64,000 nucleotides of DNA, from assembly GCF_011038655.2 (NCBI RefSeq), contig NZ_CP064954.1, forward strand, positions 682,001 through 746,000, given 5' to 3'. The first letter of the stretch is position 1. Every line of letters begins with the position of its first letter. The notes under the pieces were generated by a model that was not told the DNA's origin, searched no databases, and saw only the letters and a list, made by a program, of their open reading frames with translations. Shown piece by piece: positions 1,432 through 64,000 of this stretch. A program made the position numbers and the translations under genes. The DNA is from Corynebacterium lizhenjunii (GTDB lineage: Bacteria; Actinomycetota; Actinomycetes; Mycobacteriales; Mycobacteriaceae).

Positions 1432-3036
1432 CTACCCCAGGAGGGTTATGGCATGCGTGATGAGGATTTTGGCAATCATGGCAGCGGGGTAGACCATGGC
1501 ATAGCCCAGGCTCACGCGCGGATCGGAATTGGTGCGGGTGTTGGCGAAGGCCAACACGGCCGGTTGGGTCTGGGCGCCGGCGAGCACCCCGGCGGTTTTG
1601 GTGGCACCCATGCGCAGCGCACGCCGCATGGTCACGGCAACCCCAACGGCCACGATGGTGGTCACAATTGCGCCCAGCAGCAGAATCTTCACCCAGGCCC
1701 CGCCGGTAAACGCCCCGGCGATCTGGCCACCGGCATTGGTCCCGGCCTGGGCGAGGAAAAGCAGCAGGCCGAACTCCGCCAGCACAGTATTAGCGGAATG
1801 CGGCAGGGCCGTTATCAACGAGCCCACGCGGCCCAGCCGGCCCATGACCAGTGCTACCAGCAGCACGCCTGCGGCGGCACCCAAAGTAAAGGAGCTGCCG
1901 CCGGGTAGGGGAACTGGCACATGGCCCAGGAAGTAGCCCAGAGCCAGGCCCAGGCCCAGACCGATGGGATTGATATCCGTTAGCCCCTTGGCGGAGTCCC
2001 CCAAGTAGGTCGAGATCTCCTCAAAGGCAGCCGCTGGGCCCACCACGCGGACCCTATCGCCAAGCTCGACCATCAAATCCGGCATGGCCACCTGGTCTTC
2101 GTCCGCGCGGCGAATACGCGAGATCCGCGCGCCCCAGCGCGTGGACAACTCATTATTCAGCTGCGCTACCGTCATGCCCGCCAACGCGTGCTCAGAGACC
2201 GTAATGCGCCGAAAGTCCAGTTCATGCCGGTCATCGCTCAAAATTTGTGGGGACTCCCGCCCGGCTGTGCGCGTAATGAGGTTAAGATATTCTGGCGAAC
2301 CCACCACGGTGATAACATCCCCAGGCTCCAGGTGGTCCAGATACTTCGGAATAACAATCTCGTTGTGCCCTACGCGCCGCAGCCGCGTGACTTGGACTTC
2401 ACTATCGCCCAGACTCAACAGTTGCGCAATGGAAATGCCTTCGGCACGGGTGACCTGGATATGCACCGTGGTCACCTCGGCCGTGGTGTCGTCATCCTCA
2501 CCGGCGCTGCGCAGCACCCAGGTGGTTGCCACTAGCATGCCGATGACCCCGAAAAGGTAGGCCACCGCATAGCCAACGGTGGCAGGGCCGGCCTGGCCGG
2601 TGGCATCGGCAGCCGCAGCCAAAGCGGGAGTATTGGTTACTGCACCCGCAAAGGTACCGGCAATAACGGCAATGTCTAGCCCGAAGGCCCAAGTCCCCAG
2701 CGCCCACGCGGCTGCGGCGGCCAGCGCAAACACCCCCAGCATGGAAAGCACTGGCCATGTGGCGGTGCGTAGTGACTGGAAAAAGGTCACGCCAGAGTTG
2801 TTGCCAATACCGAAGGCAAAAAGTACTAAGCCCAAAGTGCCCAGCAGGGGCGGCAAGGTGGCATCAACCCCCAGGGCGGCAGCCCAGGCGGAGACCGCTA
2901 TGCCCAGGAAGAGGACGGCGGCAGCCCCCATGCTGATGGAACGCACCCGGATACTTCCCAGCGCCATGCCGGCGCCGAAGATGAGACAGACCAGCAAGAT
3001 GGGTTGGGCGGATAGGTAAGCCGCTACGGTGCTCAT
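1432..3036 (-). CDS. AspT/YidE-type membrane exchanger with central TrkA-C domains
   Basis: This 534-residue protein has the layout of the aspartate:alanine exchanger family: five or six hydrophobic helices (about 1-175), a cytoplasmic middle with two TrkA-C/RCK-C-like segments (VQVTRLRRVGHNEIVIPKYLDHLEPGD and a second ending VELGDRVRVVG), and a second membrane half (about 350-534). The two halves are the family's internal duplication. The Corynebacterium glutamicum succinate exporter SucE belongs to this family and has similar length, so dicarboxylate or amino-acid exchange is a reasonable guess, but the substrate is not readable. The gene stands alone. The start ATG at 3036 is supported by the hydrophobic N-terminus beginning at once. 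Confidence 0.85.
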   Translation of the reverse strand: MSTVAAYLSAQPILLVCLIFGAGMALGSIRVRSISMGAAAVLFLGIAVSAWAAALGVDATLPPLLGTLGLVLFAFGIGNNSGVTFFQSLRTATWPVLSMLGVFALAAAAAWALGTWAFGLDIAVIAGTFAGAVTNTPALAAAADATGQAGPATVGYAVAYLFGVIGMLVATTWVLRSAGEDDDTTAEVTTVHIQVTRAEGISIAQLLSLGDSEVQVTRLRRVGHNEIVIPKYLDHLEPGDVITVVGSPEYLNLITRTAGRESPQILSDDRHELDFRRITVSEHALAGMTVAQLNNELSTRWGARISRIRRADEDQVAMPDLMVELGDRVRVVGPAAAFEEISTYLGDSAKGLTDINPIGLGLGLALGYFLGHVPVPLPGGSSFTLGAAAGVLLVALVMGRLGRVGSLITALPHSANTVLAEFGLLLFLAQAGTNAGGQIAGAFTGGAWVKILLLGAIVTTIVAVGVAVTMRRALRMGATKTAGVLAGAQTQPAVLAFANTRTNSDPRVSLGYAMVYPAAMIAKILITHAITLLG

Positions 3037-3262
3037 CGCGAAAGGGCCTCACAACCAAAAAGTAGGGATAACAGCGGCATAAGTCTAGCGCCCGCAGGCG
3101 CTAGAGGCCTGTTGCCAGCCAACGGGGGTACCCGGAGTCTGGACAAAAGATAACGGCTTGGACACGATTGCCAAAGTAATGCCTATAAACGGTGGCTAAC
3201 GTGCGATGATAGACGGGTTCCTATCCGGTTTTTCTATTAAGAAGTGTGAAAGAGGGCAACAT

Positions 3263-4465: not shown

Positions 4466-4489
4466 CTGCTCCCTTCCTAGTCTGCCGAT

Positions 4490-4527
4490 GCCGCTGGTGC
4501 CCAGGTACCAGCGGCCGCAGCATTTTT
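4490..4527 (+). terminator. Intrinsic terminator after the protease gene
   Basis: A perfect 9-bp stem, GCCGCTGGT (4490-4498) with ACCAGCGGC (4507-4515), has an 8-nt loop and is followed by TTTTT at 4523-4527. The left arm is overlapped by a copy of the recurring TGCCGATGCC word (4483-4492). Confidence 0.85.
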
Positions 4528-4585: not shown

Positions 4586-5374
4586 CTAGGAGGTGGACTT
4601 AAGGTGCTCGAGCACGCTCGCGTGCAACGCACCATTGGTGGCAATGGCGGAACCGCCGTGGGGGCCCGGCTCACCGGCCCGGTTAGTAAAGGTACCGCCG
4701 GCCTCTTGGACCAGCAGGCACGGAGCAGCGAGGTCCCACAGGGAGACCTCAGGTTCGACGGCGACGTCTACTGCGCCTTCAGCCAGCAAGCAGTAGTTCC
4801 AGAAGTCACCATAGCCGCGCAGGCGCCAGGCGGAGTCTGTAAGAGCAATGAGCTGCTCGCGCACACCGGCTTCCGCCCAGCCGGACAGGGAGCTGATGGC
4901 CACGGAGGCATCGGCAAGCTGGGAGACTGCAGAAACCCGCAGGCGGCGGCGTTCCCCACCAAAAACGCGGAAGGCACCGGAGCCCTCGCAGGCAAACCAG
5001 CGGCGGCGCAGCGCGGGGGCAGAAATCACGCACACGATGGGCTTGCCGTCCTCGAGGAGGGCAATGAGGGTGGCCCATACCGGCACGCCGCGGACGAAGT
5101 TCTTGGTGCCGTCAATGGGGTCGATGACCCACTGGCGGCCCTGCAGGGAAAGCTCACCGCCAAATTCCTCGCCCAGGATCTGATCCTGCGGGCGGGCCTT
5201 AGCTAGCTCGGCGCGCAGGAGCTTCTCGCAGGCTAAATCCGCATCTGAGACCGGGGTCATGTCCGGTTTTTCCTTGACGTTGAGGTCTGCAGCCTCAAAG
5301 CGGGACATGGTCAGCTGGTCTGCTAGACCGGCTAACTCCAGCGCTACTCCGAGGTCTTCTTTGTGCTTACCCAC
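4586..5374 (-). CDS. hisN: Histidinol-phosphatase, inositol-monophosphatase type
   Basis: This 262-residue protein is of the FIG/inositol-monophosphatase superfamily. Metal-binding motifs are GEEFGGE (about 69-75), [10 protein letters not shown] (about 85-94) and the C-terminal [15 protein letters not shown]. In actinobacteria this subgroup dephosphorylates L-histidinol phosphate in histidine synthesis, and the C. glutamicum hisN lies in the same place beside a second phosphatase and prfB. It overlaps the end of the upstream phosphatase gene by 8 bp, so the two are translationally coupled. The assignment rests on synteny as well as motifs, because family members are hard to tell apart. Confidence 0.82.
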
Positions 5375-6251: not shown

Positions 6252-7376
6252 ATGCGCCCTGAAACTTCTACTCTGCTCGACCAGCTCCATGCTACGTTGG
6301 ACTCCATAGAAAAGGTCATGGACCCGCAGGCTTTAGCGGCCACCGTGCGCGAGCTAGAAGCTACCGCAGGGGACCCCACCTTGTGGGATGATCCAGCCCA
6401 TGCGCAGGCTATTACTACCCAGTTGTCGGCAGCGCAGGCCAAACTACGCAAGCTGGAGAACTTGCGCGGGCGCTTAGAGGACATGCCCGTGATGTATGAG
6501 TTGGCGGAGGAAGAAGGCGACACGGCGCTGGCTGATGAGGAGCTGACAGACCTGCGCGGGGCCATTGAGTCCCTGGAGGTGACCACCATGCTCTCTGGGG
6601 AATATGACCAACGTGAGGCTGTGATTAACATTCGCTCCGGCGCAGGTGGGGTGGATGCAGCGGATTGGGCGGAGATGCTCATGCGCATGTACACCCGCTG
6701 GGCAGATAAGAACGACCACAAGGTAGATGTTTACGACATCTCCTATGCAGAAGAGGCCGGAATTAAGTCCGCGACATTTGTGGTGCACGGGGAGTATATG
6801 TACGGCCAGCTTTCTGTGGAACAGGGCGCGCACCGCCTGGTGCGTATTTCGCCCTTTGATAATCAGGCCCGGCGCCAAACCTCCTTCGCGGAAGTGGAGG
6901 TGTTGCCGGTGGTGGAGCAGACCGACTCCATTGAGGTTGCCGACTCGGATGTGCGCGTGGACGTCTACCGTTCTTCTGGGCCGGGCGGGCAGTCGGTCAA
7001 CACCACGGACTCGGCCGTGCGGCTGACTCACCTTCCCACCGGGATTGTGGTGACCTGCCAAAATGAGAAATCCCAGATTCAAAACAAGGCCTCTGCCATG
7101 CGGGTGCTCCAGGCTAAGCTATTGGAGCGCAAGCGCCAGGAGGAGCGTGCGGAAATGGATGCCCTGGGCGCTGGCGGCAACGCCTCCTGGGGAAACCAGA
7201 TGCGCAACTACGTGCTGCACCCTTATCAAATGGTCAAGGACCTGCGCACGAACCTCGAAGTAGGGGATCCGGCGAAGGTCCTTGATGGTGACATTGATGC
7301 CTTTTTGGAGGCTGGTATCCGCTGGCGCATGGCGCAGCAGTCTGCCGATGCCGCCCCGAGCGGCCAGTCTAGCTAG
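6252..7376 (+). CDS. prfB: Peptide chain release factor 2
   Basis: This is RF2, 374 residues, which releases nascent chains at UAA and UGA. The anticodon-mimic motif SPF (RISPFDNQ, about residue 200) identifies RF2 rather than RF1, and the catalytic GGQ is in GPGGQSVNT (about 247). The start at ATG 6252 ([12 protein letters not shown]) is preferred over 6222 by comparison with known RF2 N-termini. A TAGACT -10-like box at 6237-6242 lies only 9 bp before it, suggesting a leaderless mRNA. The programmed +1 frameshift of enterobacterial prfB is absent. A copy of the recurring TGCCGATGCC word encodes SADA near the C-terminus. Confidence 0.95.
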
Positions 7377-7437: not shown

Positions 7438-9156
7438 TTAGGCCGGGTAGGTCATCGGGGAACCCGGTCCCAGCGGAATACCGATGAGGTACCAGATGAC
7501 GAAGAAGATGAACCAGCCCACCAGCATGGCAATCGAGTAGGGCAGGGCCAGCGACATCAGTGTGCCCACGCCAGCGCGCTTGTAGTAGCGCTGCAGGAAG
7601 GTCAACGCCAGGGCGAAGTAGGGCGACATCGGGGTGATGATGTTGGTGGGGCTATCACCAATACGGAAGAGCATCTGGGCTACTTCCGGGGAGACGTTAA
7701 CGTACATCAACATCGGCACGACCACCGGCGCCATCAGCGCCCACTGCGCGGAACCGGAGGTGATAAACAGGTTCAGCAGTGCCACCATGAGCACCAAACC
7801 GGCGAACATGAGTACCGGCGGCAGGTCCCAGGCCTGGAGCAATTCTGAACCCTTGATGGCCGTCCACACGCCCAGGTTAGACCAGCTGAACCAGGCCAGG
7901 AATTGCGCCACCATAAAGAACAGCACAATCATCGGTACTAGCGTTTGCAGGCCCTTGGCCATAAATTCTGGGAAGTCGCCGGCTTCCTTGATGGTGCCCA
8001 CCACCAGGCCGTACACCGCGCCGACCAGGAAGAAAGCCAAGGAGATTGGGATTGCGATGGAGCGGATGAGGGGCGAGTTCATAAACTCCCCATCTGGGCT
8101 GGCAAACGGCGAACCCGGAATGAAGATCAGTGCAAAGAACGCTGCCAGGAAGACCAGCAGTGCCACTCCAGACCACATCAGCCCGCGGGCCTCAGCTGGT
8201 GCCAGGGAGAGGGCGTCTTGGCCTTCGGCGGCGGGGGCATCGGCAGACTGGCCATCAGCAGACTGGGCATCGGCAGACTGGGCAGGGGCGTGGGCGCTGA
8301 AATCCAGCTCGCTGGTGTCCAGGTCATCGTGGTCCACCAGCTCGCGGGCCTTGCGGACGATGAAGAACTCCGTGACCACCGTGATGATGAGGGAAAGCAC
8401 CACTGCCGACGGGATGACGAAGAAGATGTTGGCCAGAGGGGAGACCTCGTAGGCTTCATCGACAATCTGGGCAGCCGAGGTGGAAATCCCGCCCAGCAGC
8501 AGATCGGTGATGTTGAGGATCAGTGAGGCGTTAAAACCGGCCGACGATGCCGCAAAGGCCACCATGGCGCCTACAATCGGGGAGCGGCCCACCGCGTGGA
8601 AAGCCATGGCTCCCAGCGGAATCAAAATGACGTAGATGGCGTCGGAGGCCACGGAACCGGTCACGCCGGTCAGGGCTACGACGAAGGTGAGCATCTTGGG
8701 GCTGACCTTGGCCACCATCGCGCGCACCAGGGCTGAAAGCAACCCAGATTGCTCGGCCACGGCCACACCCAGCATGACGGCCAGGATGACGCCCAAGGGC
8801 GGGAAGGAGGTGAAGTTAGCGACGGCCTCCGTGACCATCTTGGACAGGCCCTCGGCGGTGAGGAGGTTTTCCACGGCGATGGTCTCCCCACTTTGGGGAT
8901 CTGTTGCCGTCATACCTATGTGCGCGCCAATCCAGGAGGTCACAGCCACCAGGCCGGCCAGGATCACAAACAGCCAGAAAGGGTTGGGGAGCTTGTTGCC
9001 AATCTTTTCGATGGTGCCCAAGAATCCACCCGGCGGGGTGTGTGGGGAGTCCTGGGTACTGGTACCTGCGGTTGATTCTGTGGTGAGGTTCTTTGGCGAG
9101 TTCTTGGCGGTTTTCTTTGCCGGGTTCTCCGTCGAGTTCTCCGTGGAGGTGGACAT
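7438..9156 (-). CDS. AbgT family transporter (p-aminobenzoyl-glutamate transporter-like)
   Basis: This 572-residue polytopic membrane protein has AbgT-family signatures, e.g. NPFWLFVILAGLV near the N-terminus, GSAQWALMAPVVVPM, and DSPTNIITPMSPYFALAL near the C-terminus. Members move p-aminobenzoyl-glutamate or export sulfonamides (MtrF, YdaH); which applies here cannot be read. The cytoplasmic N-terminus is Thr/Asn/Lys-rich. A hydrophilic loop (about residues 290-315) contains a tandem Ser-Ala-Asp-Ala-Gln repeat made of copies of the recurring GGCATCGGCA word. It is convergent with prfB and divergent from ftsE. Confidence 0.88.
   Translation of the reverse strand: MSTSTENSTENPAKKTAKNSPKNLTTESTAGTSTQDSPHTPPGGFLGTIEKIGNKLPNPFWLFVILAGLVAVTSWIGAHIGMTATDPQSGETIAVENLLTAEGLSKMVTEAVANFTSFPPLGVILAVMLGVAVAEQSGLLSALVRAMVAKVSPKMLTFVVALTGVTGSVASDAIYVILIPLGAMAFHAVGRSPIVGAMVAFAASSAGFNASLILNITDLLLGGISTSAAQIVDEAYEVSPLANIFFVIPSAVVLSLIITVVTEFFIVRKARELVDHDDLDTSELDFSAHAPAQSADAQSADGQSADAPAAEGQDALSLAPAEARGLMWSGVALLVFLAAFFALIFIPGSPFASPDGEFMNSPLIRSIAIPISLAFFLVGAVYGLVVGTIKEAGDFPEFMAKGLQTLVPMIVLFFMVAQFLAWFSWSNLGVWTAIKGSELLQAWDLPPVLMFAGLVLMVALLNLFITSGSAQWALMAPVVVPMLMYVNVSPEVAQMLFRIGDSPTNIITPMSPYFALALTFLQRYYKRAGVGTLMSLALPYSIAMLVGWFIFFVIWYLIGIPLGPGSPMTYPA
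8236..8280 (-). repeat. Three tandem 15-bp repeats inside the AbgT-type gene
   Basis: Units GGCATCGGCAGACTG (8236-8250), GCCATCAGCAGACTG (8251-8265) and GGCATCGGCAGACTG (8266-8280) follow without gaps and encode SADAQ/SADGQ in a cytoplasmic loop. The unit is the dispersed word described separately plus GACTG. Confidence 0.9.
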
Positions 9157-10034: not shown

Positions 10035-10936
10035 TGCGTGGTGTGTATATCGCGAAGGCGACGGCCTCCGGGCTGCGCCGCAATCTGACCATGACCTTGG
10101 CGTTGGTGATTACCTCTGCTATCGCCGCGGCATTTGTGCTGTTGGGGGCGTTGGTTACCCAGATGGCCACCGCCGCTAAGCAGGCGTACTTGGATGAGGC
10201 AGTAGTGCTGGTGCAGTTGGAGGAGCAGATTTCTGCAGAGGACGCCGACTGCAGCGGGCGGTTGTGCGCCCAGTTGCGCGCCCGCCTGGAGCAGGACCCG
10301 GCGGTGGTGGAGGTGACCTTCCGCAACCGTGCGCAGTCTTACGCCCGCTTTGTGGAGCTCTTCCAGGACCAGGATCCCGACCTAGTTGCTGATACTCCCG
10401 AGGACGCCCTGCCCGCCGCCTTCCAGGTGCGCCTGGCCGATCCTACCGATGCTTCCGCTGTTACCGCGCTTGCCGATGCCCCCGGTGTAGCCACCGTTAG
10501 CGACCAAGCCGCCGAGGCTCGCGCCGCCTCCCGCAACTTGGACGCAGCCCGCACTGTGGCCTTCGGCATCGCCGCTCTGCAGGCCGTGGCGGCACTGTTT
10601 CTGATTGCCAATCTGGTGCAGATTTCTGCATTCCACCGCGCGACCGATTTGTCCATCATGCGCATGGTGGGCGCGAGCCGATGGTTTAGCGCCGCGCCCT
10701 TTGTGGCGGAGGCAGCCCTGGCGGTTCTGGCGGGTGTAGCTGTGGCCGCCGGTGCCGTGGCGGCGGCCAAGCACTTCCTTATCGACCCGGCTCTGCAGGA
10801 TCTTTATGCTTCCGGTCTGTTGGTTCCGCTTGCCGATGCCACCGTGTGGCACGCCCTGCCCTGGGTGGCAGGTGGCTCCGTGGCAGGGGCAGTGGCGGCG
10901 GCCCTGGTGGGGGTGGCCGGATACGTCAAGGCCTAG
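10034..10936 (+). CDS. ftsX: Cell division protein FtsX
   Basis: This 300-residue permease-like protein has one N-terminal transmembrane helix (about 18-38), an extracellular domain of about 120 residues containing a Cys pair (DCSGRLC), then three helices in the C-terminal FtsX/MacB-type membrane domain. The extracellular domain in this family contacts wall hydrolases such as RipC. It starts on the last base of the ftsE stop. Two copies of the TGCCGATGCC word (10471, 10831) encode LADA segments in the extracellular part and before the last helix. Confidence 0.93.
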   Translation: MRGVYIAKATASGLRRNLTMTLALVITSAIAAAFVLLGALVTQMATAAKQAYLDEAVVLVQLEEQISAEDADCSGRLCAQLRARLEQDPAVVEVTFRNRAQSYARFVELFQDQDPDLVADTPEDALPAAFQVRLADPTDASAVTALADAPGVATVSDQAAEARAASRNLDAARTVAFGIAALQAVAALFLIANLVQISAFHRATDLSIMRMVGASRWFSAAPFVAEAALAVLAGVAVAAGAVAAAKHFLIDPALQDLYASGLLVPLADATVWHALPWVAGGSVAGAVAAALVGVAGYVKA

Positions 10937-10971
10937 CCGGGTCGGATAGGCGGGGTGTGTTGGGTCCGTTA

Positions 10972-10994
10972 GGCGGGGCCCGCCGAGCCCCGCC
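10972..10994 (+). terminator. GC-rich hairpin after ftsX
   Basis: GGCGGGGC (10972-10979) pairs with GCCCCGCC (10987-10994). There is no T-run, so it may be a weak or factor-assisted terminator between ftsX and smpB, or only an mRNA stabiliser. Confidence 0.45.
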
Positions 10995-16984: not shown

Positions 16985-17542
16985 TTAGCTTTGGCGCCAA
17001 CCGGTGCTCAGTAGGTCGATGAGGGTTTCGATGGGGGAGTCGGCGTCGGCAGCCCAAGCCAGCCCCAGGGTGGCGGCGTAAAGGTCGCGGGCGCTGACCT
17101 CAGGGCGGGCAACGCCGGCTTGCTGGGCGTTGTGGAGCAGGACCTCCAGGGTGGTGAGGAGATCCGAGCACGTTGCGGCTAGGGGGCCGGTGTTGGTGGT
17201 AATGGCCTCAAGCATGGGGGTAGTGGCGCCTTCGAAGCTGGTGGACCATTGGGCGATGATGAGCAGCCATTGGGTGAGGGCTGCGGCGGCATCGGCAGAC
17301 TGGGCTAGAGCGTTGCCTTCGGTGGCTACGTTGGGGGCGCACCCCTCGAGGATGGCACCGAAGAGGGCCTCGCGGTTGGGGAAGTGGCGGTAGAGGGTGC
17401 CGGGGCCCACGCCGGCCTCCTTGGCGATCTTGTCCATGGAGGCCGCTAGGCCATGGGCCTCGAATTGGGAGCGGGCGACGTCAAGGATGCGCTCGCGGTT
17501 GGCTTGGGCGTCGCGCCGGGGGTGTTTTACCTGGTTGTCCAT
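16985..17542 (-). CDS. TetR family repressor
   Basis: This 185-residue protein has an N-terminal TetR helix-turn-helix (RERILDVARSQFEAHGLAASMDKIAKEAGVGPGTLYRHFPNREALF split over residues 16-61). The C-terminal ligand domain is alanine-rich, and a GGCATCGGCA word encodes SADA in it. It is divergent from a flavin reductase and monooxygenase pair with a 107-bp gap containing two near-identical palindromes, so it is probably their repressor, relieved by the monooxygenase substrate or a related compound. Confidence 0.9.
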   Translation of the reverse strand: MDNQVKHPRRDAQANRERILDVARSQFEAHGLAASMDKIAKEAGVGPGTLYRHFPNREALFGAILEGCAPNVATEGNALAQSADAAAALTQWLLIIAQWSTSFEGATTPMLEAITTNTGPLAATCSDLLTTLEVLLHNAQQAGVARPEVSARDLYAATLGLAWAADADSPIETLIDLLSTGWRQS

Positions 17543-17649: not shown

Positions 17650-18165
17650 ATGACAACTAGCTACAAGGAGAAGACGATGGATCCGATCGAGCTGCGGCGC
17701 AGCCTGGGGGCCTTCCCAACTGGGGTAGTGCTCATAGCGGCAGAGCTTGGGGGCAAGGCTGGCGGGACACCCGCGCCGAAGACGGTGGGAATGCTGGCCA
17801 ACTCATTTGGATCGGTGTCGCTAGATCCGCCGCTGGTGCAGGTTAGTTTCGCGCACACCTCCACCACCTGGCCGGTGCTGCGGGAGGCGCAGGAGCTGGC
17901 CATTAGCGTGCTTAGCGCGGATAACCTGGCGGACGCTGAAGCGTTGCGCAGGCCTGCGGGGCAGCGTTTTGAGGGCATCGGCATGCAAGGCTGGGACGGC
18001 CAGGCGCAGGTGCTTCCAGGGGCGGCAGCGCAGTTCAGGGTGCGCCTCTATGAGGAAATTGCCGCTGGAGACCACACCATTGCACTCTTTGAGGTTCTCG
18101 ACCACCGCCGCGATGAGCTCGCGGCGCCACTGCACTTTGTGGCCGGGCACATGTTCGCCCGCTAA
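17650..18165 (+). CDS. Flavin reductase-like FMN-binding protein
   Basis: This 171-residue protein has the flavin reductase split-barrel fold: RRSLGAFPTGVVLIAAE near the N-terminus, TVGMLANSFGSVSLDPPLVQVSFA (about 46-69) and a C-terminal AGDHTIALFEVLDH. It would supply reduced FMN to the adjacent two-component monooxygenase. GAAAGG precedes ATG 17650. ATG 17677 (MDPIELRRSLG) is an alternative, closer to typical family N-termini. It lies 42 bp before the monooxygenase. Confidence 0.85.
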   Translation: MTTSYKEKTMDPIELRRSLGAFPTGVVLIAAELGGKAGGTPAPKTVGMLANSFGSVSLDPPLVQVSFAHTSTTWPVLREAQELAISVLSADNLADAEALRRPAGQRFEGIGMQGWDGQAQVLPGAAAQFRVRLYEEIAAGDHTIALFEVLDHRRDELAAPLHFVAGHMFAR

Positions 18166-23472: not shown

Positions 23473-24219
23473 CCATTCCACACCTCTGACCCCCCAATTT
23501 TGCAGTTGCTTGCCGATGCCGCTGTGGGTTGGGGGTTTGTTGGTGGTTGGGGTTGTTTGGGTGGTGGTTGGTGTGGGGTGGATATGGGGTGTGGGCTGGG
23601 GATTTGTGTTGGTGGTGGGGTGTGTGTAGATTAGTTCAAGTCAGCGCGACCGACAGCGCCCCGCTTACAGCCCCTTTGGTTGGGTCTGGTTGATTGCGGT
23701 GTGGCGGTAAGAAAACAGTTGCTGATGTTCCTCCTTTGAAGCTTGCTAGAGTGTTTCTGGTGTGTGGATGTGGGTGGGGATGTTGTTTGAGAACTCAATA
23801 GTGTGCCAATGTACTTTTATTTTTGTTTGTCTGCTGTGGCGGTCATTGTGGTGGAAGTGTGTTGTGCTGGCTGCGCCTGTTTGGTGGGTGTGGTTGGTTG
23901 GTGTGTGCCGGGTGGTGCCCTGTTCCGAATGTGGGGTGTCACTGTAATAGAACTGATAATTTTTGGTTTGGTGCATACTGTTAAAGAGTCGCATTTTTGC
24001 TGTGGTGGCGTTTGTTGTCATGGTGGTAACCGGACCGTCTGGGCTTCCTCGTCGGTTGTTGGGTGGTTCGGGTGATTTTTTCTTTATGTAGTAATTTTTT
24101 GGATTTGCCAGTCCGCTGCTGCTGTTTGTGGTGGTGGTTTGGTTTGTCTTTTTTGTCTAGGTTTTGGGCTTTTCACGCCCTGGTCCGGCACTCTTTTTTG
24201 TTTGGGTGCTGGTGCCTTT
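23473..24219 (+). promoter_or_regulatory. rrn upstream and leader region
   Basis: This 747-bp stretch has no credible gene. One strand is very rich in G and T (23522-23630 and 23820-23930). A copy of TGCCGATGCC is at 23511. TAGAGT at 23747-23752 is a candidate rRNA -10 box without a well-spaced -35. At 23781-23805, TGTTGTTTGAGAACTCAATA followed by GTGTG matches the boxA-like antitermination sequence of actinobacterial rRNA leaders. A related sequence recurs in the 16S-23S spacer. Confidence 0.6.
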
Positions 24220-49530: not shown

Positions 49531-51192
49531 ATGAATAACACTGCACCTCTCTATTTGGCTCAAGAGGCCCCGGAAGCCACCGCTGGCAACCCGATCCTCA
49601 ACATTGCCGTCTTCATCGTCTTCCTTGTCGTCACCATGGCGGTCGTGCTGCGCGCCGGCAAGTCCACCAAGGAAGCATCTGATTTCTACACCGGCGGCGG
49701 AAGCTTCTCTGGCCGTCAAAATGGCTTGGCTATCTCCGGTGACTACCTCTCGGCTGCGTCCTTCCTGGGCATCGTTGGCGCCGTGGCTTTGACCGGCTAT
49801 GACGGCTTCCTGTACTCCGTGGGCTTCTTCGTCGCCTGGCTGGTAGCCCTGATGCTCGTTGCTGAGCCACTGCGTAACGTAGGCCGCTTCACCATGGCTG
49901 ACGTGTTGTCTTTCCGCTTGCGGCAAAAGCCGGTGCGCGTGGCTGCAGCCATCGCCACCCTGTTTGTCTCCCTGTTCTACCTGGTTGCTCAGATGGCTGG
50001 CGCTGGCTCCCTAGTGTCCGTTCTGTTGGACATCCACGACTTCTTCTGGCAGGCCGTGGTGGTCGGCGTTGTGGGCGTGTTGATGATCGTCTACGTGCTG
50101 GTCGGCGGCATGAAGGGCACCACCTACGTCCAGATGATCAAGGCCGTGCTCCTGGTCACCGGTGTGGTAATTATGTGCCTGCTGGTCTTCGTCCACCTCA
50201 AGGGCGGCTTCAATGCGCTGTTTGACACCGCAGTGGACATGCACGCTACCTCGGACTACATCCAGACTAAGGGCTACGAGGCAACCCAGATCATGGAGCC
50301 GGGCCTGAAGTACGGCAAGAACCTCACCACCAAGATTGACTTCATCTCCCTGGGTATTGCCCTGGTGCTGGGCGTCGGTGGTCTGCCGCACGTGCTCATG
50401 CGCTTCTACACCGTGCCTACCGCAACTGAGGCTCGCCGCTCCGTGACCTGGGCCATCGTTATCATTGGTTCCTTCTACCTGATGACCCTCATCCTGGGCT
50501 TCGGTGCTGCTGCCCTGGTGGGCCCGGACCGCATCCTTGCTGCCCCGGGTGGTGCAAACGCTGCCGCACCGCTGCTGGCACTGGAGCTGGGTGGTTCCGT
50601 CTTCATGGCAGTTATCTCCGCTGTGGCTTTCGCTACCGTGCTGGCCGTGGTCGCTGGCCTGGCCATTACCGCCTCCGCCTCCATTGCCCACGACGTCTAC
50701 CACTCCGTTATCCGCAACGGTGAGTCCACCGAGGCCGAGCAGGTCCGCGTCTCCCAGATCACCGTGGTGATCCTCGGTATCGTCGCCATCATCCTGGGCA
50801 TCCTCGCCATGACCCAAAACGTGGCCTTCCTGGTTTCCCTGGCCTTCGCTATCGCGGCATCGGCAAACCTGCCCACCATCTTGTACTCCCTGTACTGGCG
50901 CCGCTTCAACACCGCAGGTGCCGTGGCCTCCATGTACACCGGCGTCATCTCCTGCCTGGTGCTCATCTTCTTCTCCCCGGCTGTCTCTGGCACGGAAACC
51001 TCGATGTTCCCCAACGCAGACTGGGCTCTGTTCCCGCTGTCCTCCCCGGGTATCGTCTCCATTCCGCTGGCCTTCCTGGTTGGTTGGATTGTTCCCCTGG
51101 TTACCAAGCCGGACAACCTGGAAGAACTCTCCGCTGAGATGGAAGTGCGCTCGCTCACCGGTGTTGGCGTTGAAGCTCCGGTTGACCACTAA
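49531..51192 (+). CDS. mctC: Monocarboxylate/acetate symporter of the SSS family
   Basis: A 553-residue solute:sodium symporter with about 13 membrane helices. It has DFYTGGGSFSGRQNGLAISGDYLSAASFLG (two elements around the sodium-site helix), GVGGLPHVLMRFYTVPT and FATVLAVVAGLAITASASIAHD. It is the ActP-like branch; the C. glutamicum orthologue at this locus imports acetate, propionate and pyruvate. Co-transcribed with the DUF485 gene and probably activated by RamA. A GGCATCGGCA word encodes ASA in a helix. Confidence 0.88.
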   Translation: MNNTAPLYLAQEAPEATAGNPILNIAVFIVFLVVTMAVVLRAGKSTKEASDFYTGGGSFSGRQNGLAISGDYLSAASFLGIVGAVALTGYDGFLYSVGFFVAWLVALMLVAEPLRNVGRFTMADVLSFRLRQKPVRVAAAIATLFVSLFYLVAQMAGAGSLVSVLLDIHDFFWQAVVVGVVGVLMIVYVLVGGMKGTTYVQMIKAVLLVTGVVIMCLLVFVHLKGGFNALFDTAVDMHATSDYIQTKGYEATQIMEPGLKYGKNLTTKIDFISLGIALVLGVGGLPHVLMRFYTVPTATEARRSVTWAIVIIGSFYLMTLILGFGAAALVGPDRILAAPGGANAAAPLLALELGGSVFMAVISAVAFATVLAVVAGLAITASASIAHDVYHSVIRNGESTEAEQVRVSQITVVILGIVAIILGILAMTQNVAFLVSLAFAIAASANLPTILYSLYWRRFNTAGAVASMYTGVISCLVLIFFSPAVSGTETSMFPNADWALFPLSSPGIVSIPLAFLVGWIVPLVTKPDNLEELSAEMEVRSLTGVGVEAPVDH

Positions 51193-51358: not shown

Positions 51359-52321
51359 ATGACATCTATGTCCGCGCCTTGGTCTAGGTCTTGGTCTAGG
51401 CCGCTGGGGTGCGCGGTGGTGGGGTGCTTGCTGGCGGTGACGGCGGTATCGGCAAGCTCGTGCACCCAGGCGCCCGCCCCGGACTTGCCGGTGGGGGCGG
51501 CACCGACGGAGGCATCGGCAGCAGTAGAAGCCTTGCGTGCCGATACCGCCGCGGCCGCAGCCTCCGCCGCACGCACAGCCGCGCAGGCCTCCACCACCCT
51601 GACCGTCCAAGCACCGCCCACGCAGGCCGACGTCGCTGCAGGCCTGTCAGGGGCAGTCACTTTTCTTCCCGATGCCTCTGCGCGCCAGATGTCCTATATC
51701 CGGCTGTCTGATGGCATGCGGATGTGTAGCCCCGGAGACAAGTATGCGCGCCCAGCGCTGAGCCTGATCAAGCTCTACCTGGCTGCCTATGTGGTAGAGC
51801 ACGGGAGCATTAGCGACAAATATGAGGCGCTGTCTATGGTGGCGGATTCTTCGGATGTCAGTGCCAGTGACTTGTTTGAGCGCTACCCGGAGTCGATTGA
51901 TGCTATTGCCGCGCAGTACCGGCTGGCCTCGACCCGCGCGGGGGAGCAGTGGGGGCACTCGGTGACCTCTACCTATGACGTGGTCAGCTTTATTGTGGCG
52001 CTATTGGAGGACGACCCCGCCCATCCGGTGCTGGTAGCCATGTCCCAAGCTCACGAGCTAGCTGCCGACGGCTACCAGCAGGACTTTGGCACTTCACGGT
52101 TGCACAATGTTCTGGGAACCAAGTTCGGGTGGTCCGATGATAGGACCCTACATTCCTCGGTGTCCTTTGGCCCGAACTTTGTGGCGGCGGCCGCGGTTAC
52201 GGGCTCGGCGGAGGACTTGACGTCTTTTGTTCGCAAGGAGATTAACGGTAAAACGTTGAAGGCCGCCACGGAGAAGTTCCTGGCGGCGCGAAATACGGCT
52301 AGCGAACTGCCTTGCCAATAG
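51359..52321 (+). CDS. Lipoprotein with degenerate beta-lactamase-like serine hydrolase domain
   Basis: A 320-residue protein from ATG 51359; 51335 and 51368 are other in-frame starts. A signal with lipobox SASSC is followed by an Ala/Thr-rich helical linker, then a domain resembling class A beta-lactamases. SxxK is kept as SLIK (Ser135, Lys138), followed by LYLAAYVVEHG. The second motif (SDVSASDLF) and the third (GTKFGW for KTG) are altered. It may be a non-hydrolytic or unusual transpeptidase-like protein. Its end overlaps the convergent gene by 23 bp. Confidence 0.7.
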   Translation: MTSMSAPWSRSWSRPLGCAVVGCLLAVTAVSASSCTQAPAPDLPVGAAPTEASAAVEALRADTAAAAASAARTAAQASTTLTVQAPPTQADVAAGLSGAVTFLPDASARQMSYIRLSDGMRMCSPGDKYARPALSLIKLYLAAYVVEHGSISDKYEALSMVADSSDVSASDLFERYPESIDAIAAQYRLASTRAGEQWGHSVTSTYDVVSFIVALLEDDPAHPVLVAMSQAHELAADGYQQDFGTSRLHNVLGTKFGWSDDRTLHSSVSFGPNFVAAAAVTGSAEDLTSFVRKEINGKTLKAATEKFLAARNTASELPCQ

Positions 52322-53219
52322 TGGTGAGCAGGTCGATCCCGCCTTGTAGCTGTTGCGGGGTCAGGCTTGAACCTCCCATGCGTGACGATAGCTGCGACAG
52401 AACGTCCTGGGGTGCAATCGCTGCGCCAGGGTCTACAGGGGTAGGCGCGGGTGCAGGTCGCTGCCCGGGTGTCCACTGGCCCCAGTCGCGCGCATAAACA
52501 TTATTGATGTCCACAACGACTCCATCGATGGTGGCTTGCCGGTTTTGCGGCAGCTGGTGGATGGTGGTGCGCGGGTGGATTTTGCCATTGGAGCCCCAGT
52601 CGTGCATCCAGTAGAAACTGCCGATGCCCTCGCGGCTGGCCCACTCGATGACGTTGTAGTTGCCATAGATACCGGTGCTGTAGCCTGCGGCGCGCAGGGC
52701 CGCACTAAAGGCTAGTAGATAGGGGCGAATGAGGCTGTCGTACTGTGCGCGGGTGGGGTTGTCATCAATAGCGATGTAGATGGGCCTTCCGGTGGGCCCG
52801 CCGGCGGCCTTGTGCAAGGCGATGGCCTGTGGGGCGTGCGTGGCGGCGCCTGCTGCTCCTTGGAGCCAGTCTGCAGTAGACGCGCGGCCAAATTGGTAGA
52901 CCGATGCCGTGGCCAGTCCCGCCGCTGCCTGGGCGCGGGTTTCTGCCAGCGTGACTGGTTTGCCTTTCATCCACTGCGCGTCCGGCCGACGTTGGGACAC
53001 GTAGCGAACTGCGCCCAGGTGGCCGGCTGCCTTGATTGCCGCAGCGCTGGGCACTCCTGCCGAGTAGTCGATGACGGTGCCTAGCACGGGGCCAGGAGCA
53101 CCGGTGTATGCGTGTGCCTTCGGCGCCAAGGTTGCGCTTGTGGCCAGCGTGGCAGCACCCAGCGCGGTGGCGGTGAGGAAGCTTCGGCGGCTGAGCCCGC
53201 CTGCGGGTGGGGTAGACAT
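52299..53219 (-). CDS. Tat-exported glycoside hydrolase-like protein (DUF1906/Rv2525c-like)
   Basis: A 306-residue protein with a twin-arginine signal (LSRRSFLTATALG, cleavage near KAHAY). The DUF1906 TIM-barrel-like domain has GTVIDYSAGVPSAAAIKAAG, YVSQRRPDAQWMKGKP, YIAIDDNPTRAQYDSL and TGIYGNYNVIEWASREGIGSFYW at successive strands. A Pro-rich linker and a short helix follow. The Mycobacterium Rv2525c domain is structurally a glycoside hydrolase-like fold linked to the cell wall; activity here is unproven. Confidence 0.85.
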   Translation of the reverse strand: MSTPPAGGLSRRSFLTATALGAATLATSATLAPKAHAYTGAPGPVLGTVIDYSAGVPSAAAIKAAGHLGAVRYVSQRRPDAQWMKGKPVTLAETRAQAAAGLATASVYQFGRASTADWLQGAAGAATHAPQAIALHKAAGGPTGRPIYIAIDDNPTRAQYDSLIRPYLLAFSAALRAAGYSTGIYGNYNVIEWASREGIGSFYWMHDWGSNGKIHPRTTIHQLPQNRQATIDGVVVDINNVYARDWGQWTPGQRPAPAPTPVDPGAAIAPQDVLSQLSSRMGGSSLTPQQLQGGIDLLTTIGKAVR

Positions 53220-53421: not shown

Positions 53422-54036
53422 ATGCGGGCGCAGTCCCTCATCACTGCTTTTGCTTTGGTCGCTACAGGCTGTTTCGCGCTGGCGGGGTGCGCACGTCCAT
53501 CCCCGCCAGGCCCGGAGTCTGTTCCTGTTGTGGAGCAGGCCAGCGAAGCCAAATCTGCCGATGCCACCGCGGCCGGGTTTGCAATGCCCGCACCGGGTCC
53601 CTTCGACCCCAATGCGCCGGACTATACGCCGTTTCAGCCTTGTCAGGACATTTCGCAGGAGCAATTCGCTGAACTTGGACTCAAGGTTGTCCCTGAAGAG
53701 CAGGAGCACTATCTTCCTTATGCTTGTCCCGTTGAATTACCAGAGCTCGAGGGGCGCGGGGCTTTAGCGCTTGTCGCATACCCGGATAGCCTGTCGCAGC
53801 TTTTGGATGGCCGCGGCTTGGTGATCGCTGAGGAACCAAGCGCCGACTTGCCAGGTGGCGCCGTTTTGGTCTCACAAGACCCGCTCTTACGAGGGGTGTG
53901 TATGTCGGGCGTTGAAACTCCGCGTGGATTCTTCGCAGTTGAGTATGTCAGCGGTATGTCAGTCCCAAGCGGCGTCACGCTGTGCGAGGTACCGACCAAA
54001 ATACTACGAGAAATTTATGGAGCTACAAATGATTAA
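53422..54036 (+). CDS. DUF3558 family lipoprotein
   Basis: A 204-residue protein with a lipoprotein signal (lipobox ALAGC, Cys23), a Ser/Ala/Pro linker that includes a TGCCGATGCC word (SADA), then a DUF3558-type domain: FQPCQDISQEQFAELGL, and Cys residues (YACPVEL, GVCMSGVE, LCEVP) likely disulfide bonded. Mycobacterial LppB-like proteins belong here; the role is unknown. GAAAGGAG precedes the ATG. It overlaps the next gene by 8 bp (ATGATTAA), so the two are coupled. Confidence 0.8.
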   Translation: MRAQSLITAFALVATGCFALAGCARPSPPGPESVPVVEQASEAKSADATAAGFAMPAPGPFDPNAPDYTPFQPCQDISQEQFAELGLKVVPEEQEHYLPYACPVELPELEGRGALALVAYPDSLSQLLDGRGLVIAEEPSADLPGGAVLVSQDPLLRGVCMSGVETPRGFFAVEYVSGMSVPSGVTLCEVPTKILREIYGATND

Positions 54037-59751: not shown

Positions 59752-62700
59752 ATGCCTGAAAACATCTTGAGCAAATTCCGCCCCCAAGTCGCGGGGTGGT
59801 TTGCAGATGTCTTCGCCGCCCCCACCCCGGTGCAGCAACAAGCCTGGGAGGCCATTTCCGCAGGCAAACACGCCCTGGTGGTAGCCCCCACCGGCTCTGG
59901 CAAGACCCTGGCGGCCTTCCTGTGGGCACTCAATGCCCTGGTGGAGCGGGAGGGGCAAATGGCATTGCCCGTTGGCGCACAGGGGCACACACAGGGCCAG
60001 TCGCAGGGGCAGGGGGCATCGGCAGGCGTGAAGGTGCTCTACATCTCCCCACTAAAAGCCCTGGGAGTAGACGTAGAGAATAATCTGCGCGCACCGCTGG
60101 CGGGCATTGCCCGGGTGGCGCAGCGCCTGGGGTTGGAGGAGCCCAACATTAGCGTGGGCGTGCGCTCTGGGGATACCCCGCAGGCGGAGCGCAACCGTCA
60201 GCTGCGCCGCCCGCCGAATGTGCTCATCACCACCCCGGAATCTGCCTACCTTATGCTCACCTCGAAAGCGTCTGGCATATTGCAGACGGTCGATACGGTG
60301 ATTATTGATGAGATTCATGCGGTAGCCGGCACCAAGCGGGGAGTGCACCTGGCGTTGACCCTGGAGCGCCTGACGCAGGTGGCCGGGGAGTTCCAGCGCA
60401 TCGGGCTTTCCGCCACGGTGCGCCCAGTAGAAACAGTGGCGCATTTTCTGGGCGGCACCCGCTCCGTTGAGATCATCGCACCCCCGGGAGACAAACACTG
60501 GGACCTAGGAGTGCACGTGCCGGTCGAGGACATGTCTGACCTGCCCGTGCCGGAGCCAGGTTCGACCATTGGGGAGCTCACCATCGATGATCAGGCGGGC
60601 ATCACCGCCAGCGACTCCGCCTTGCCCACCGCCAAATCTATTTGGCCCCACATCGAGCAGGAACTCTATGCGGAAGTCATGGCGCACACCTCTACGCTGG
60701 TCTTTGTCAACTCCCGGCGCACGGCAGAGCGTGTGACCAGCAGGCTCAATGAGCTCTATGCTCAAGAGCATGATCCGGACGCTCTTTCTCCCACCACTCG
60801 CCGGGACCCGGCGCAGCTGATGAAGCAAGTTGATGTGGCCGGAACCGCCCCGGCGCTTATCGCCCGCGCCCACCACGGCTCGGTGTCTAAGGATGAGCGC
60901 GCCTTGACGGAGAGGATGCTCAAGGAAGGCTCCTTGCGTGCGGTGGTGGCCACCAGCTCCTTGGAGTTGGGCATTGACATGGGGGCGGTGGACTTGGTAG
61001 TGCAGGTAGAGTCCCCGCCCGCGGTGGCCTCCGGGTTGCAGCGCGTGGGCCGCGCCGGGCACTCCGTGGGGGCGGTCTCCCAGGGGTCTTTCTACCCGAA
61101 GCACCGCGCCGACCTGCTGCAGACCGCTGTGACGGTGGAGCGCATGCGCGCCGGGCAGATTGAGCAACTGCGGGTACCGTCCAACCCCCTGGATGTGTTG
61201 GCGCAGCACACCGTTGCTGCGGTGGCCGTAGCGCAGACTTTGGACGTGGAGCAGTGGTATGCCACCGTCACCCGGGCGTGGCCCTACCGCGACTTGGCGC
61301 GGGAGGTCTTTGATGCCGTCATTGACTTAGTCTCTGGGGTGTACCCCAGCACAGATTTTGCGGAATTGCGCCCACGGGTGGTCTTTGACCGGTTGTCTGG
61401 CCAGTTGACCGCCCGCCCGGGGGCGCAGCGCGTCGCAGTGACTAACGGCGGAACTATCCCAGATCGCGGCATGTTCGGGGTCTTCCTGGTTGGCGGCTCC
61501 GACTCCCCACGGCGGGTAGGTGAGCTAGACGAGGAAATGGTCTATGAATCCCGGGTGGGGGACGTGTTTACCCTGGGGGCCTCTTCGTGGCGAATTGAAG
61601 ACATCACGCGGGACCAGGTGCTGGTCAGCCCCGCGCCCGGGCACACGGGGCGGCTGCCGTTTTGGAATGGGGATCAGCCCGGGCGGCCCTATGAACTGGG
61701 AAAGGCGCTGGGGACATTTCGCCGAGAAGCCCACGCCCAGCCGCAGCGCGTGCCGCAGGGGCTCGACGCCCGCGCCCGCCGTAATCTGCTGGCGTACTTA
61801 GAGGAGCAGCAGGAGGCCACGGGCCTGGTCCCGGATGAAAAGACGCTGCTCCTAGAGCGATTTACCGATGAGCTAGGGGATTGGCGGGTAGTGCTGCACA
61901 CCCCCTTTGGCCGGCCGGTCAATGCCGCGTGGGCGTTGGCAGTGGGGCACAGGGTGGCCACGCTCACCGGCATGGACCCGCAGGCGGTGGCCGGTGATGA
62001 TGGCATTGTGCTGCGCATTCCGGAGGGCGAGTCCGTCCCGGACGCCGGCCTCTTTCTGTTTGACGCAGACGAGATTGCGCAGATTGTCACAGAACAGGTG
62101 GGTAACTCTGCGCTCTTTGCTTCTCGTTTCCGGGAGTGCGCGGCGCGGGCCTTGTTGCTGCCCCAGCACAATCCAGGCAAGCGGGCGCCGTTGTGGCAGC
62201 AGCGCCAGCGCGCGGAGCAGTTGCTAGACGTGGCGCGCAAGTATCCGTCTTTCCCCATCATTTTGGAAACAGTGCGGGAGTGTGTGCAAGATGTCTACGA
62301 TCTCCCCGCGCTGCAGGAGACCATGCGCGATCTGGCGCAGCGCCGCATTCGCATTGCAGAGGTAACCACGCAGCAGCCCTCACCCTTTGCGTCTTCGCTG
62401 CTGTTCAATTACACCGGCGCGTTTATGTATGAAGGCGATAGTCCGCTGGCGGAAAAGCGGGCTGCTGCCTTGGCTTTGGATCCGGCGTTGCTGGCGAAGC
62501 TGTTGGGCACGGTTGAGCTGCGGGAGCTGTTGGATCCGGACATCATCGCAGATGTCCACGCCCAGTTGCAGTGGCTGACTCCCCAGCGGCGGGCCCGCAG
62601 CGCCGAGCAGGTGGCTGACTTGTTAAGGGTGGTGGGCCCGGTGCCGGTGGCGCAGCTGGGCGAGCATGCAGAGGTTCCGCTCAGCGCTGTGGAGAGCCTG

Positions 62701-64000
62701 GGCAAGCGGATTATGCGGGTGCGCATTGGTGGGGTGGAGCACCTGGCGCAGGCTCTAGACGCGCCGTTGTTGCGCGATGGCTTGGGCGTGCCGGTGCCGC
62801 CAGGCATTGCAGCGCAGCAGGCCACCATTACTGACGCTTTGGCGCAGCTGGTGTCGCGGTGGGCCCGAACTCGCGGTCCGTTTACGGTGCCAGAGCTTGC
62901 CGATGCCCTCGGCCTGTCCCCCTCGGCTGCACACACCGTCCTGGCCAGCCTAGACGGGCTGGTCCAGGGCCACTACCGTCAAGGTGTGGCGGAGGAGGAG
63001 TACGTGGCTGCGGAGGTGCTGCGCACTATTCGCTCCCGTTCTTTGGCGGCGGCGAGGGCGGCCACAGAACCGGTGTCGGCCGCGACGTTCGGGCGCTTTT
63101 TGCCGCAGTGGCAGCAGGTGGGCGGGCAGCTTGCCGGGGTTGATGGCGTATTTGCGGTGATAGAGCAGCTCGCTGGGGTGCGCCTGCCGGCGTCGGCGTG
63201 GGAGTCGCTAGTGCTCCCAGCACGCGTGGCTAATTACCATCCGACGATGTTGGATGAGCTCACCGCTAATGGCGAGGTGCTCATTGTGGGCGCGGGAAAG
63301 GCGGCGGCTAATGATCCCTGGATCATGTTGCTGCCCACCGAGGATGCCCCGGACCTGGCTCCCCAGGCGAATACCGAGGGCCTAACCGTGGTGCAAACTC
63401 AGCTGCTGGAGGCCTTCCGCGGTGGGGGTAGCTTCTTAGTTGCTGAGGTGGCCGGCCGGGTGGCTGCTACCAGTGTGGAACTGCGCGAGGCCCTGTGGGG
63501 CCTGGTGGAAGCGGGACTGGTCAGTCCAGATTCTTTCGCCCCCATTCGCGCCCACTTGGCCACCACTGGCCGGCCGACGCGCTCGCGGCGTGGGCGCAGT
63601 GGGCGCCTGGCCCCGGACCTGGCCGGGCGCTGGGGGCTTACAGTCGCGCCTGGCGATGTCACCTCGCGGTCAGTCACTCTGGGGCAGAGATGGCTGGAGC
63701 GCTACGGGGTCCTTACCCGCGGCAGCGTGGTCGCAGAAGACACGGTGGGCGGCTTCGCCTTAGCGTATAAAGTCTTATCGGGGTTTGAAGAGTCCGGGAA
63801 GGCCATACGCGGCTATGTCATCGAGGGGCTAGGCGCAGCCCAGTTTTCTACCCCGGCGGTTATCGACCGCCTGCGGGGGCTGGCAGATAGCCCCGATGTG
63901 CACGGGTGGCCCTCGGGTGCTACCACCGTCGAGACTCATGTGTTGGCAGCGGCTGATCCCGCTAACCCTTATGGTGCGGCGTTGCCGTGGCCCGAAGGCG
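59752..64000 (+). CDS. lhr: Lhr-family ATP-dependent helicase (3' end outside window)
   Basis: 1416 codons are visible, out of about 1500 usual for actinobacterial Lhr. Walker A is VVAPTGSGKT (about 42-51) and the DEIH box is VIIDEIHAV (about 183-191). Then follow IGLSATVRPVE, LVFVNSRRTAERV, TSSLELGIDMGAVDLVVQVESP and QRVGRAGHSVG. The long C-terminal region has winged-helix and Lhr-core domains (NGGTIPDRGMFGVFL). It is a 3'-5' DNA helicase acting in DNA repair. TACAGT 8 bp before the ATG suggests a leaderless transcript. The GGCATCGGCA word occurs twice (60015, 62899). Confidence 0.95.
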   Translation, partial: MPENILSKFRPQVAGWFADVFAAPTPVQQQAWEAISAGKHALVVAPTGSGKTLAAFLWALNALVEREGQMALPVGAQGHTQGQSQGQGASAGVKVLYISPLKALGVDVENNLRAPLAGIARVAQRLGLEEPNISVGVRSGDTPQAERNRQLRRPPNVLITTPESAYLMLTSKASGILQTVDTVIIDEIHAVAGTKRGVHLALTLERLTQVAGEFQRIGLSATVRPVETVAHFLGGTRSVEIIAPPGDKHWDLGVHVPVEDMSDLPVPEPGSTIGELTIDDQAGITASDSALPTAKSIWPHIEQELYAEVMAHTSTLVFVNSRRTAERVTSRLNELYAQEHDPDALSPTTRRDPAQLMKQVDVAGTAPALIARAHHGSVSKDERALTERMLKEGSLRAVVATSSLELGIDMGAVDLVVQVESPPAVASGLQRVGRAGHSVGAVSQGSFYPKHRADLLQTAVTVERMRAGQIEQLRVPSNPLDVLAQHTVAAVAVAQTLDVEQWYATVTRAWPYRDLAREVFDAVIDLVSGVYPSTDFAELRPRVVFDRLSGQLTARPGAQRVAVTNGGTIPDRGMFGVFLVGGSDSPRRVGELDEEMVYESRVGDVFTLGASSWRIEDITRDQVLVSPAPGHTGRLPFWNGDQPGRPYELGKALGTFRREAHAQPQRVPQGLDARARRNLLAYLEEQQEATGLVPDEKTLLLERFTDELGDWRVVLHTPFGRPVNAAWALAVGHRVATLTGMDPQAVAGDDGIVLRIPEGESVPDAGLFLFDADEIAQIVTEQVGNSALFASRFRECAARALLLPQHNPGKRAPLWQQRQRAEQLLDVARKYPSFPIILETVRECVQDVYDLPALQETMRDLAQRRIRIAEVTTQQPSPFASSLLFNYTGAFMYEGDSPLAEKRAAALALDPALLAKLLGTVELRELLDPDIIADVHAQLQWLTPQRRARSAEQVADLLRVVGPVPVAQLGEHAEVPLSAVESLGKRIMRVRIGGVEHLAQALDAPLLRDGLGVPVPPGIAAQQATITDALAQLVSRWARTRGPFTVPELADALGLSPSAAHTVLASLDGLVQGHYRQGVAEEEYVAAEVLRTIRSRSLAAARAATEPVSAATFGRFLPQWQQVGGQLAGVDGVFAVIEQLAGVRLPASAWESLVLPARVANYHPTMLDELTANGEVLIVGAGKAAANDPWIMLLPTEDAPDLAPQANTEGLTVVQTQLLEAFRGGGSFLVAEVAGRVAATSVELREALWGLVEAGLVSPDSFAPIRAHLATTGRPTRSRRGRSGRLAPDLAGRWGLTVAPGDVTSRSVTLGQRWLERYGVLTRGSVVAEDTVGGFALAYKVLSGFEESGKAIRGYVIEGLGAAQFSTPAVIDRLRGLADSPDVHGWPSGATTVETHVLAAADPANPYGAALPWPEG

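Follow-up and report, generated by a model that had tools for sequence, protein, structure and literature searches.

A genus-wide DNA word with dialects in Corynebacterium, likely a DNA-uptake sequence

The DNA uptake sequences (DUS) of the Neisseriaceae are short, non-palindromic words that occur in hundreds to thousands of copies, and they form dialects that keep a fixed core and follow phylogeny; biased transformation is named as the most plausible cause of the words and of their dialects in the consulted part of the source (PMC3630211). The words are scarce in foreign islands, according to the passages available from PMC7371117. In the Pasteurellaceae, the uptake signal sequence (USS) is, as excerpts of PMC7811141 and PMC12616744 describe it, a genome-wide short self word of competent bacteria. 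We describe a word of Corynebacterium that resembles both systems in these respects. It was noticed as the 10-mer GGCATCGGCA in a 64-kb stretch of Corynebacterium lizhenjunii DNA (the window: bases 682,001-746,000 of a genome assembled as one contig of 2,607,882 bases). We propose, with a probability of roughly three in four, that GGCATCGGCA[AG][AG]C represents one dialect of a word shared across the genus, likely a DNA-uptake sequence read by a predicted surface protein; we infer that this reader serves as the receptor for uptake and that these bacteria transform naturally.

Abundance, dialects and genus limits of the word

Within the window we counted 26 exact copies of GGCATCGGCA (15 on the plus strand and 11 on the minus strand, spanning 2602-62907), compared to 0.39 on average and at most 2 in dinucleotide shuffles (n=100); an earlier note on this DNA had reported the same count and orientations. 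The sequence RRC lay directly 3' of 20 of the 26 copies, in agreement with the note's observation that conservation continues past the core on that side. On the 2.6-Mb chromosome, GGCATCGGCARRC was present in 643 copies (318 forward and 325 reverse) and the reversed pattern gave none on either strand. The note had proposed a count against a Markov model; one of fourth order predicted 7.6 copies in a 464-kb sample in which we found 175; for GGCATCGGCAAGC, 0.17 copies were expected in that sample and 75 were found. Information above background extended from about -3 (G-rich) to +13, giving roughly GGGGGCATCGGCA[AG][AG]CT. Variants of the 10-mer with one letter changed at position 0, 5 or 6 were about as rare as the Markov model predicts, or rarer; at positions 7 and 8, where other dialects leave the letter free, such variants exceeded expectation in five of six cases.

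Of 242 Corynebacterium genomes, 18 held the exact 13-mer in abundance (at least 20 copies), among them that of the window. Samples of other species carried the related words GGCATCGATAAGC, CATCGACAAGCT, CGTCGTCAAGCG, GTCGTCGATAAGC, CGTCGAGAAGC and CGTCGGCAAGC, and the common core of the dialects is CRTCGNNAAGC. This core exceeded its reversed control at least fourfold in 184 of the 242 genomes (153-2032 copies, median 1130); it was below 2.5-fold in 50 genomes and in between in 8, and its forward-reverse z-scores had a standard deviation of 0.80. Among 246 other genomes of the order, where ratios were computed for the 21 highest-looking rows and the rest were judged by eye, the top ratio seen was 2.08 and none reached fourfold. 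Copies of the core were counted in six of seven named Corynebacterium loci or genomes: C. flavescens has 629, C. lubricantis 1333, C. senegalense 1504 and C. pseudodiphtheriticum 1004, and the 92 copies in C. mendelii and 101 in C. jeikeium are background.

We placed the word on a tree of TadA from 53 chosen genomes, picked partly by word status, with genomes of at least 250 core copies taken as word-rich. One clade was word-poor throughout (21/21) and the other held 26 word-rich and 6 word-poor genomes. The dialects followed the tree: the CATCG type was found in 8 of 10 genomes of one clade and the CGTCG type in 10 of 10 of the other, with 3 dialect changes compared to 6.4 in shuffles (20 word-rich genomes with at least four sampled sites each). 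A second word, TGGCGTCGRA, was present in 101-338 copies in 8 of the 242 genomes (G093, G240, G010, G015, G180, G066, G033 and G265), compared to 6-88 copies, by eye, in the other 234. CRTCGNNAAGC was at background in all eight carriers, the lowest of which, G265 with 101 copies, is marginal. The second word has GGCRTCG in common with the window dialect, with A often next, and seven of its eight genomes fall in the word-poor TadA clade, G265 being absent from that tree. A search for replacement words in 31-51 kb from each of the six word-poor lineages inside the word-rich clade found nothing convincing.

Concerted change of one letter and what might read the word

Two groups of close relatives differ by one letter of the word. 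Genomes G006, G187, G205 and G181 spell it CATCG, and their near relatives G004, G247, G005 and G211 spell it CGTCG. At this letter the A:G counts were 101:5 in the G006 group versus 7:105 in the G004 group; for the same 5-mers outside words they were 1230:647 versus 1092:745. We followed individual sites between the groups using the 54 CATCG words found in G006, 22 of which could be aligned to loci fetched from the other group. Sixteen of the 22 kept the other nine fixed letters, and A had become G in 15 of these 16; in 13, both free letters agreed between the groups. As a control, 116 CATCG sites outside words that kept the other four letters comprised 19 changed to G, 91 unchanged and 6 changed to C, so that the switch affected 15 of 16 words versus 19 of 110 controls when A and G alone are considered (p = 2.4e-9). 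The reverse direction gave the same picture, with 14/14 words changed versus 19/45 controls for G211, 12/12 versus 16/37 for G004 and 9/9 versus 18/38 for G247, three comparisons that are not mutually independent. Within one dialect group, 0 of 15 and 1 of 14 words had changed. The sites thus stay where they are as a single letter is rewritten in concert. This points to a shift in the specificity of a reader, and a reader protein with changed specificity followed by genome-wide drive explains the switch best.

We determined how the word is distributed on the window's chromosome, where GC skew flips near 1.3-1.43 Mb. Sampled copies numbered 51 forward and 51 reverse before the flip and 37 and 36 after it (88 versus 87 in total), so the strand bias by replichore that the earlier note had set as a check is absent, and a segregation or other polar signal was rejected on these equal strands in both replichores. 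Nineteen of twenty 20-kb stretches held 4-12 copies each; the remaining one had none and is a prophage, with capsid, portal and terminase genes. The word-free region covers 1,414,678-1,468,770 (54 kb); a stretch of this length should hold about 20 copies at the density of the sample. Genes for an amidase, a viral recombinase and an antirepressor lie in neighbouring parts of the region, and a glycosyltransferase gene close to one of its edges is not necessarily of phage origin. Four viral contigs encoding a related portal protein contained 0-1 copies in 21 kb each, and among the matches listed in a portal search of named phages there were no named corynephages. The IS21-family gene and the rRNA operon of the window have zero copies.

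The reader might instead work inside the cell, as a nucleoid, segregation or repair factor or an orphan methylase, with the copies held by selection for binding. The concerted switch calls for a sequence-specific reader and is silent on its cellular location, and absence from the prophage region would also fit a self mark. We nevertheless find an intracellular protein unlikely, given that the word is spread over the whole chromosome with no replichore polarity and is placed densely in genes at a cost to peptide sequence, both unlike parS, matS and KOPS, and that selecting about a thousand single sites at once would be hard without a transfer-based drive. A Chi-like recombination signal that protects self DNA or stimulates its repair would share with Chi the spacing of about 2 kb and the absence from phage DNA. 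It is a decidedly poor candidate, however: Chi is biased to the leading strand, in contrast to the 88 forward and 87 reverse copies seen here, equal in both replichores, and known Chi sites span 5-8 bp compared to a constrained stretch of roughly 13-16 bp in the word.

Neighbouring copies less than 150 bp apart formed 19 pairs (7 inverted and 12 direct) in a 495-kb sample made up of the window and 431 kb of other stretches, 80% of whose bases were assigned to genes by a crude gene caller. Seventeen of the 19 close spacings were multiples of 3, as expected within genes, which suggests duplication of word-bearing peptide repeats inside genes. Terminator hairpins were rejected on the same figures. 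The clustering of some genic copies at multiple-of-3 spacings is what the remnant or core of a dispersed mobile repeat might leave, but such an origin is very improbable and was rejected, since little is conserved beyond about 16 bp, where conservation fades save for a weak G excess at each third base upstream (0.27-0.33 bits at -9, -12 and -15), and since orthologous copies change in place by point mutation.

The 495-kb sample contained 189 copies, of which 106 are read as x-Ala-Asp-Ala, 25 as Gly-Ile-Gly, 21 as Ala-Ser-Ala and 4 otherwise; 33 lie outside called genes. Ala-Asp-Ala itself is found 202 times versus 123 expected, and it is written GCCGATGCC in 120 of those 202 cases, compared to 16.9 expected from codon use (about 7 times). 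Short intergenic gaps (16 kb) held 6 copies, or 0.37 per kb, about the density in genes. The DNA word shapes the proteins and not the reverse. The earlier note too had held amino-acid preference to be insufficient, and neither of the outcomes by which it would have reduced the word to codon-usage bias, a genome count close to Markov expectation or an excess confined to one codon frame, was obtained. The note's suggestion that copies prefer gene ends is not supported: the 156 genic copies among the 189 are flat along the gene, with 16, 16, 15, 14, 17, 20, 17, 10, 16 and 15 per tenth. Codon and amino-acid bias in Leu/Ser-Ala-Asp-Ala segments, which would account for the x-Ala-Asp-Ala majority and the Ala-Asp-Ala excess, has next to no chance of explaining the word and was rejected, given the sevenfold excess of the exact spelling, the other reading frames and the intergenic copies.

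Candidate uptake machinery and the weight of the evidence

The part of PMC6667448 consulted counts tadA1, tadA2 and comEA among the competence-related genes of the transformable actinobacterium Micrococcus luteus. Together with the biased transformation of the Neisseriaceae and the scarcity of their words in foreign islands, these genes led us to regard the Corynebacterium word as an uptake sequence. A Tad-pilus component or ComEA would bind the word on free DNA, the pilus would pull that DNA through the mycolate outer layer, and ComEC would pass a single strand inside, where recombination would install it. Tagged fragments would be taken up more often, so that biased transformation would spread and retain copies born by mutation. 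Such copies would be found on either strand, inside genes as well as in intergenic DNA, whereas phage DNA that has only recently arrived would lack them. Should the specificity of the reader shift, all copies would drift to the new spelling and dialects would result. The earlier note had likened the word to DNA-uptake sequences, and the dialects, the concerted switch, the absence from the prophage and the lack of replichore bias support the likeness, from which uptake itself is predicted.

The genes for such a route are present. ComEC was detected in 241 of the 242 genomes and T2SSE/TadA in 239. In the window's genome a tad cluster encodes TadA, two T2SSF proteins, a DUF4244/Flp pilin and a Tad-domain protein, and ComEA-ComEC-HolA is found as well. 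At these frequencies the presence of ComEC or TadA does not discriminate between genomes, and a genus-wide link between it and the word was rejected. The weaker TadA Pfam match in many word-poor genomes reflects clade divergence on the TadA tree. At least one of TadZ and two small Tad proteins was undetected by tblastn in 2 of 6 word-poor loci inside the word-rich clade and in 6 of 6 deep word-poor loci, compared to 0 of 18 word-rich loci, which may reflect either divergence or a real difference. Between the G004 and G006 groups, the most diverged proteins were ComEA (68-72% identical), TadC (67-74%) and a small protein (72-74%) encoded downstream of the TadE-like one, followed by TadZ, TadB and ComEC (74-78%), the TadE-like protein (85-87%), TadA (86-87%), HolA (88-89%) and Flp (92%).

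Separately, two ComEC matches each were seen in the word-rich genomes G001, G072 and G255, and the one in the word-poor G166 contains an in-frame TGA. These comEC oddities may stem from recent loss of competence or from errors in assembly. Among the matches listed, several word-poor comEC frames measure about 650-810 aa and most word-rich ones about 440-640 aa, with a few word-rich frames reaching 680-740 aa.

Several observations weigh against an uptake sequence. Word-poor relatives would be expected to lack the core machinery and they retain it: word-poor species of the deep clade, and likewise the six word-poor lineages nested among word-rich ones, have ComEC, ComEA, TadA, TadB, TadC and the Flp pilin. 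ComEA was present in all eight word-poor genomes whose com locus was fetched, and TadA, TadB, TadC and Flp were present in 18/18 word-rich, 6/6 word-poor-inside-clade and 6/6 deep word-poor tad loci, so the presence of the core machinery does not track that of the word. No receptor for the word was found, no search aimed at ComP, the minor pilin that is the receptor of the neisserial DUS, having been made, and among the papers listed in the literature searches there was no report of natural transformation in Corynebacterium. The test on foreign DNA covers one prophage and four 21-kb viral contigs of unassigned host, and the dialect tree is that of one gene (TadA) in genomes of our own choosing. 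The A:G difference outside words between the two dialect groups is slight but significant (p = 1.5e-4), and in the commonest frame the change of GAT to GAC leaves the amino acid as it is, so that this letter can switch easily. Finally, the copies are spaced about randomly and not evenly (coefficient of variation 0.95).

With these points counted, the uptake sequence remains our preferred explanation. We also think it somewhat more likely than not that most Corynebacterium species are naturally transforming, with uptake policed by a genus-wide self word via Tad pili; that this is the first such system outside Gram-negatives, with an independent origin in bacteria that have a mycolate outer membrane; and that its dialects switch by one receptor change and concerted rewriting of the chromosome. 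No description of an uptake word in Corynebacterium or any actinobacterium was found in the literature searched, which took in few subscription papers, and the earlier note likewise knew of none in the genus.

Copies in the window and comparison with known systems

The readings and gene positions of the window copies are those of our own crude gene caller. Sixteen copies are read as Ala-Asp-Ala. On the plus strand these are 2602..2611 (3' flank GCC), 4907..4916 (AGC), 8236..8245 (GAC), 8266..8275 (GAC), 17288..17297 (GAC), 30849..30858 (AGC), 33842..33851 (AGC), 34700..34709 (AAC), 37716..37725 (AAC) and 44169..44178 (GAC), and on the minus strand 7343..7352 (GAC), 10471..10480 (AGC), 10831..10840 (AGC), 18417..18426 (GGG), 41943..41952 (AGC) and 62898..62907 (AGC). 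The four Ala-Ser-Ala copies are 33791..33800 (minus, AGC), which forms an inverted pair with the copy at 33842 in the same gene, and 50856..50865 (AAC), 51511..51520 (GCA) and 60015..60024 (GGC), all on the plus strand. Gly-Ile-Gly is read at 17974..17983 (plus, TGC), 19489..19498 (plus, AGC) and 52619..52628 (minus, GTT). The three copies outside called genes are all on the minus strand, at 4483..4492 (GAC), 23511..23520 (AGC) and 53556..53565 (GAT). The earlier note's 4 Ala-Ser-Ala and 3 Gly-Ile-Gly readings were thus recovered, and its 17 Ala-Asp-Ala and 2 intergenic copies became 16 and 3. A protein family (MctC) and the nearest named relative, C. flavescens (94% identical citrate synthase), both place the genome in Corynebacterium. 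Just two word sites of the window fell within alignments to C. flavescens, one of them poorly aligned, too few for use, and in the copy at 50856..50865 the last base of the 10-mer differs.

An IS21-family transposase gene (14139-15752, within 13374-15752) lies near a tmRNA gene (12048-12426), and the stretch 10841-17287 is word-free. A gene for an XPB-like DNA repair helicase (31868-33505) adjoins a gene with three word copies (33563-35746). Elsewhere, the 12-bp palindrome GGAGCTAGCTCC forms short arrays with an exact 69-bp spacing and differing intervening sequence in locus L066 (Corynebacterium sp. HMSC074A01, 15076-20097); it has 92 copies in G191, 33 in G119 and 0-1 in the remainder of the 242 genomes, and looks like a separate repeat-spacer family.

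If the word is an uptake sequence, sequence-guided uptake arose independently outside Gram-negative bacteria; what its carriers have in common may be the possession of an outer membrane, and not descent from Gram-negatives. Hidden natural transformation would then be predicted in a genus whose species matter to industry, the dairy, the skin and the clinic, missing words would mark foreign islands, and the dialects would be natural barriers to gene exchange. In the G004 and G006 groups, one dialect letter apart, the co-evolution of a receptor with a thousand sites would be directly testable.

Several features by which uptake sequences are recognised were found for this word: an excess on both strands, copies in genes and between them, phylogenetic dialects, scarcity in mobile DNA and the presence of competence genes. 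Other classes of abundant word compare less closely. Chi and KOPS are over-represented short chromosomal words and are strand-polarised; the Corynebacterium word is also over-represented but has no strand polarity (51/51 and 37/36 by replichore). HIP1 of cyanobacteria is a very abundant short palindromic word across its lineage; the Corynebacterium word is likewise abundant lineage-wide, but it is non-palindromic and has dialects with free spacer letters. USS pairs of Haemophilus influenzae often form terminators, and CRISPR-related motif pairs are reported for Corynebacterium, in the portion of PMC5217627 consulted; of the close pairs of our word, in contrast, 7 of 19 are inverted, and the window's one such pair lies inside a gene. 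The USS of the Pasteurellaceae is also unrelated in sequence. The DUS of the Neisseriaceae, in the passages at hand, occur once per 400-1100 bp (PMC7371117) and have a CTG core common to all dialects (PMC3630211). The Corynebacterium word is less dense, with a median of 1130 copies per genome, and CTG is absent on either strand of GGCATCGGCAAGC and the other dialect words; the variant GGCATCGGCAGAC alone has it, on the reverse strand. The two words are unrelated in sequence and belong to different phyla, and the machinery differs, with type IVa pili in Neisseriaceae and Tad pili, through which uptake would take place, in Corynebacterium. We would file the Corynebacterium word as one that probably works like the DUS, from outside the neisserial family.

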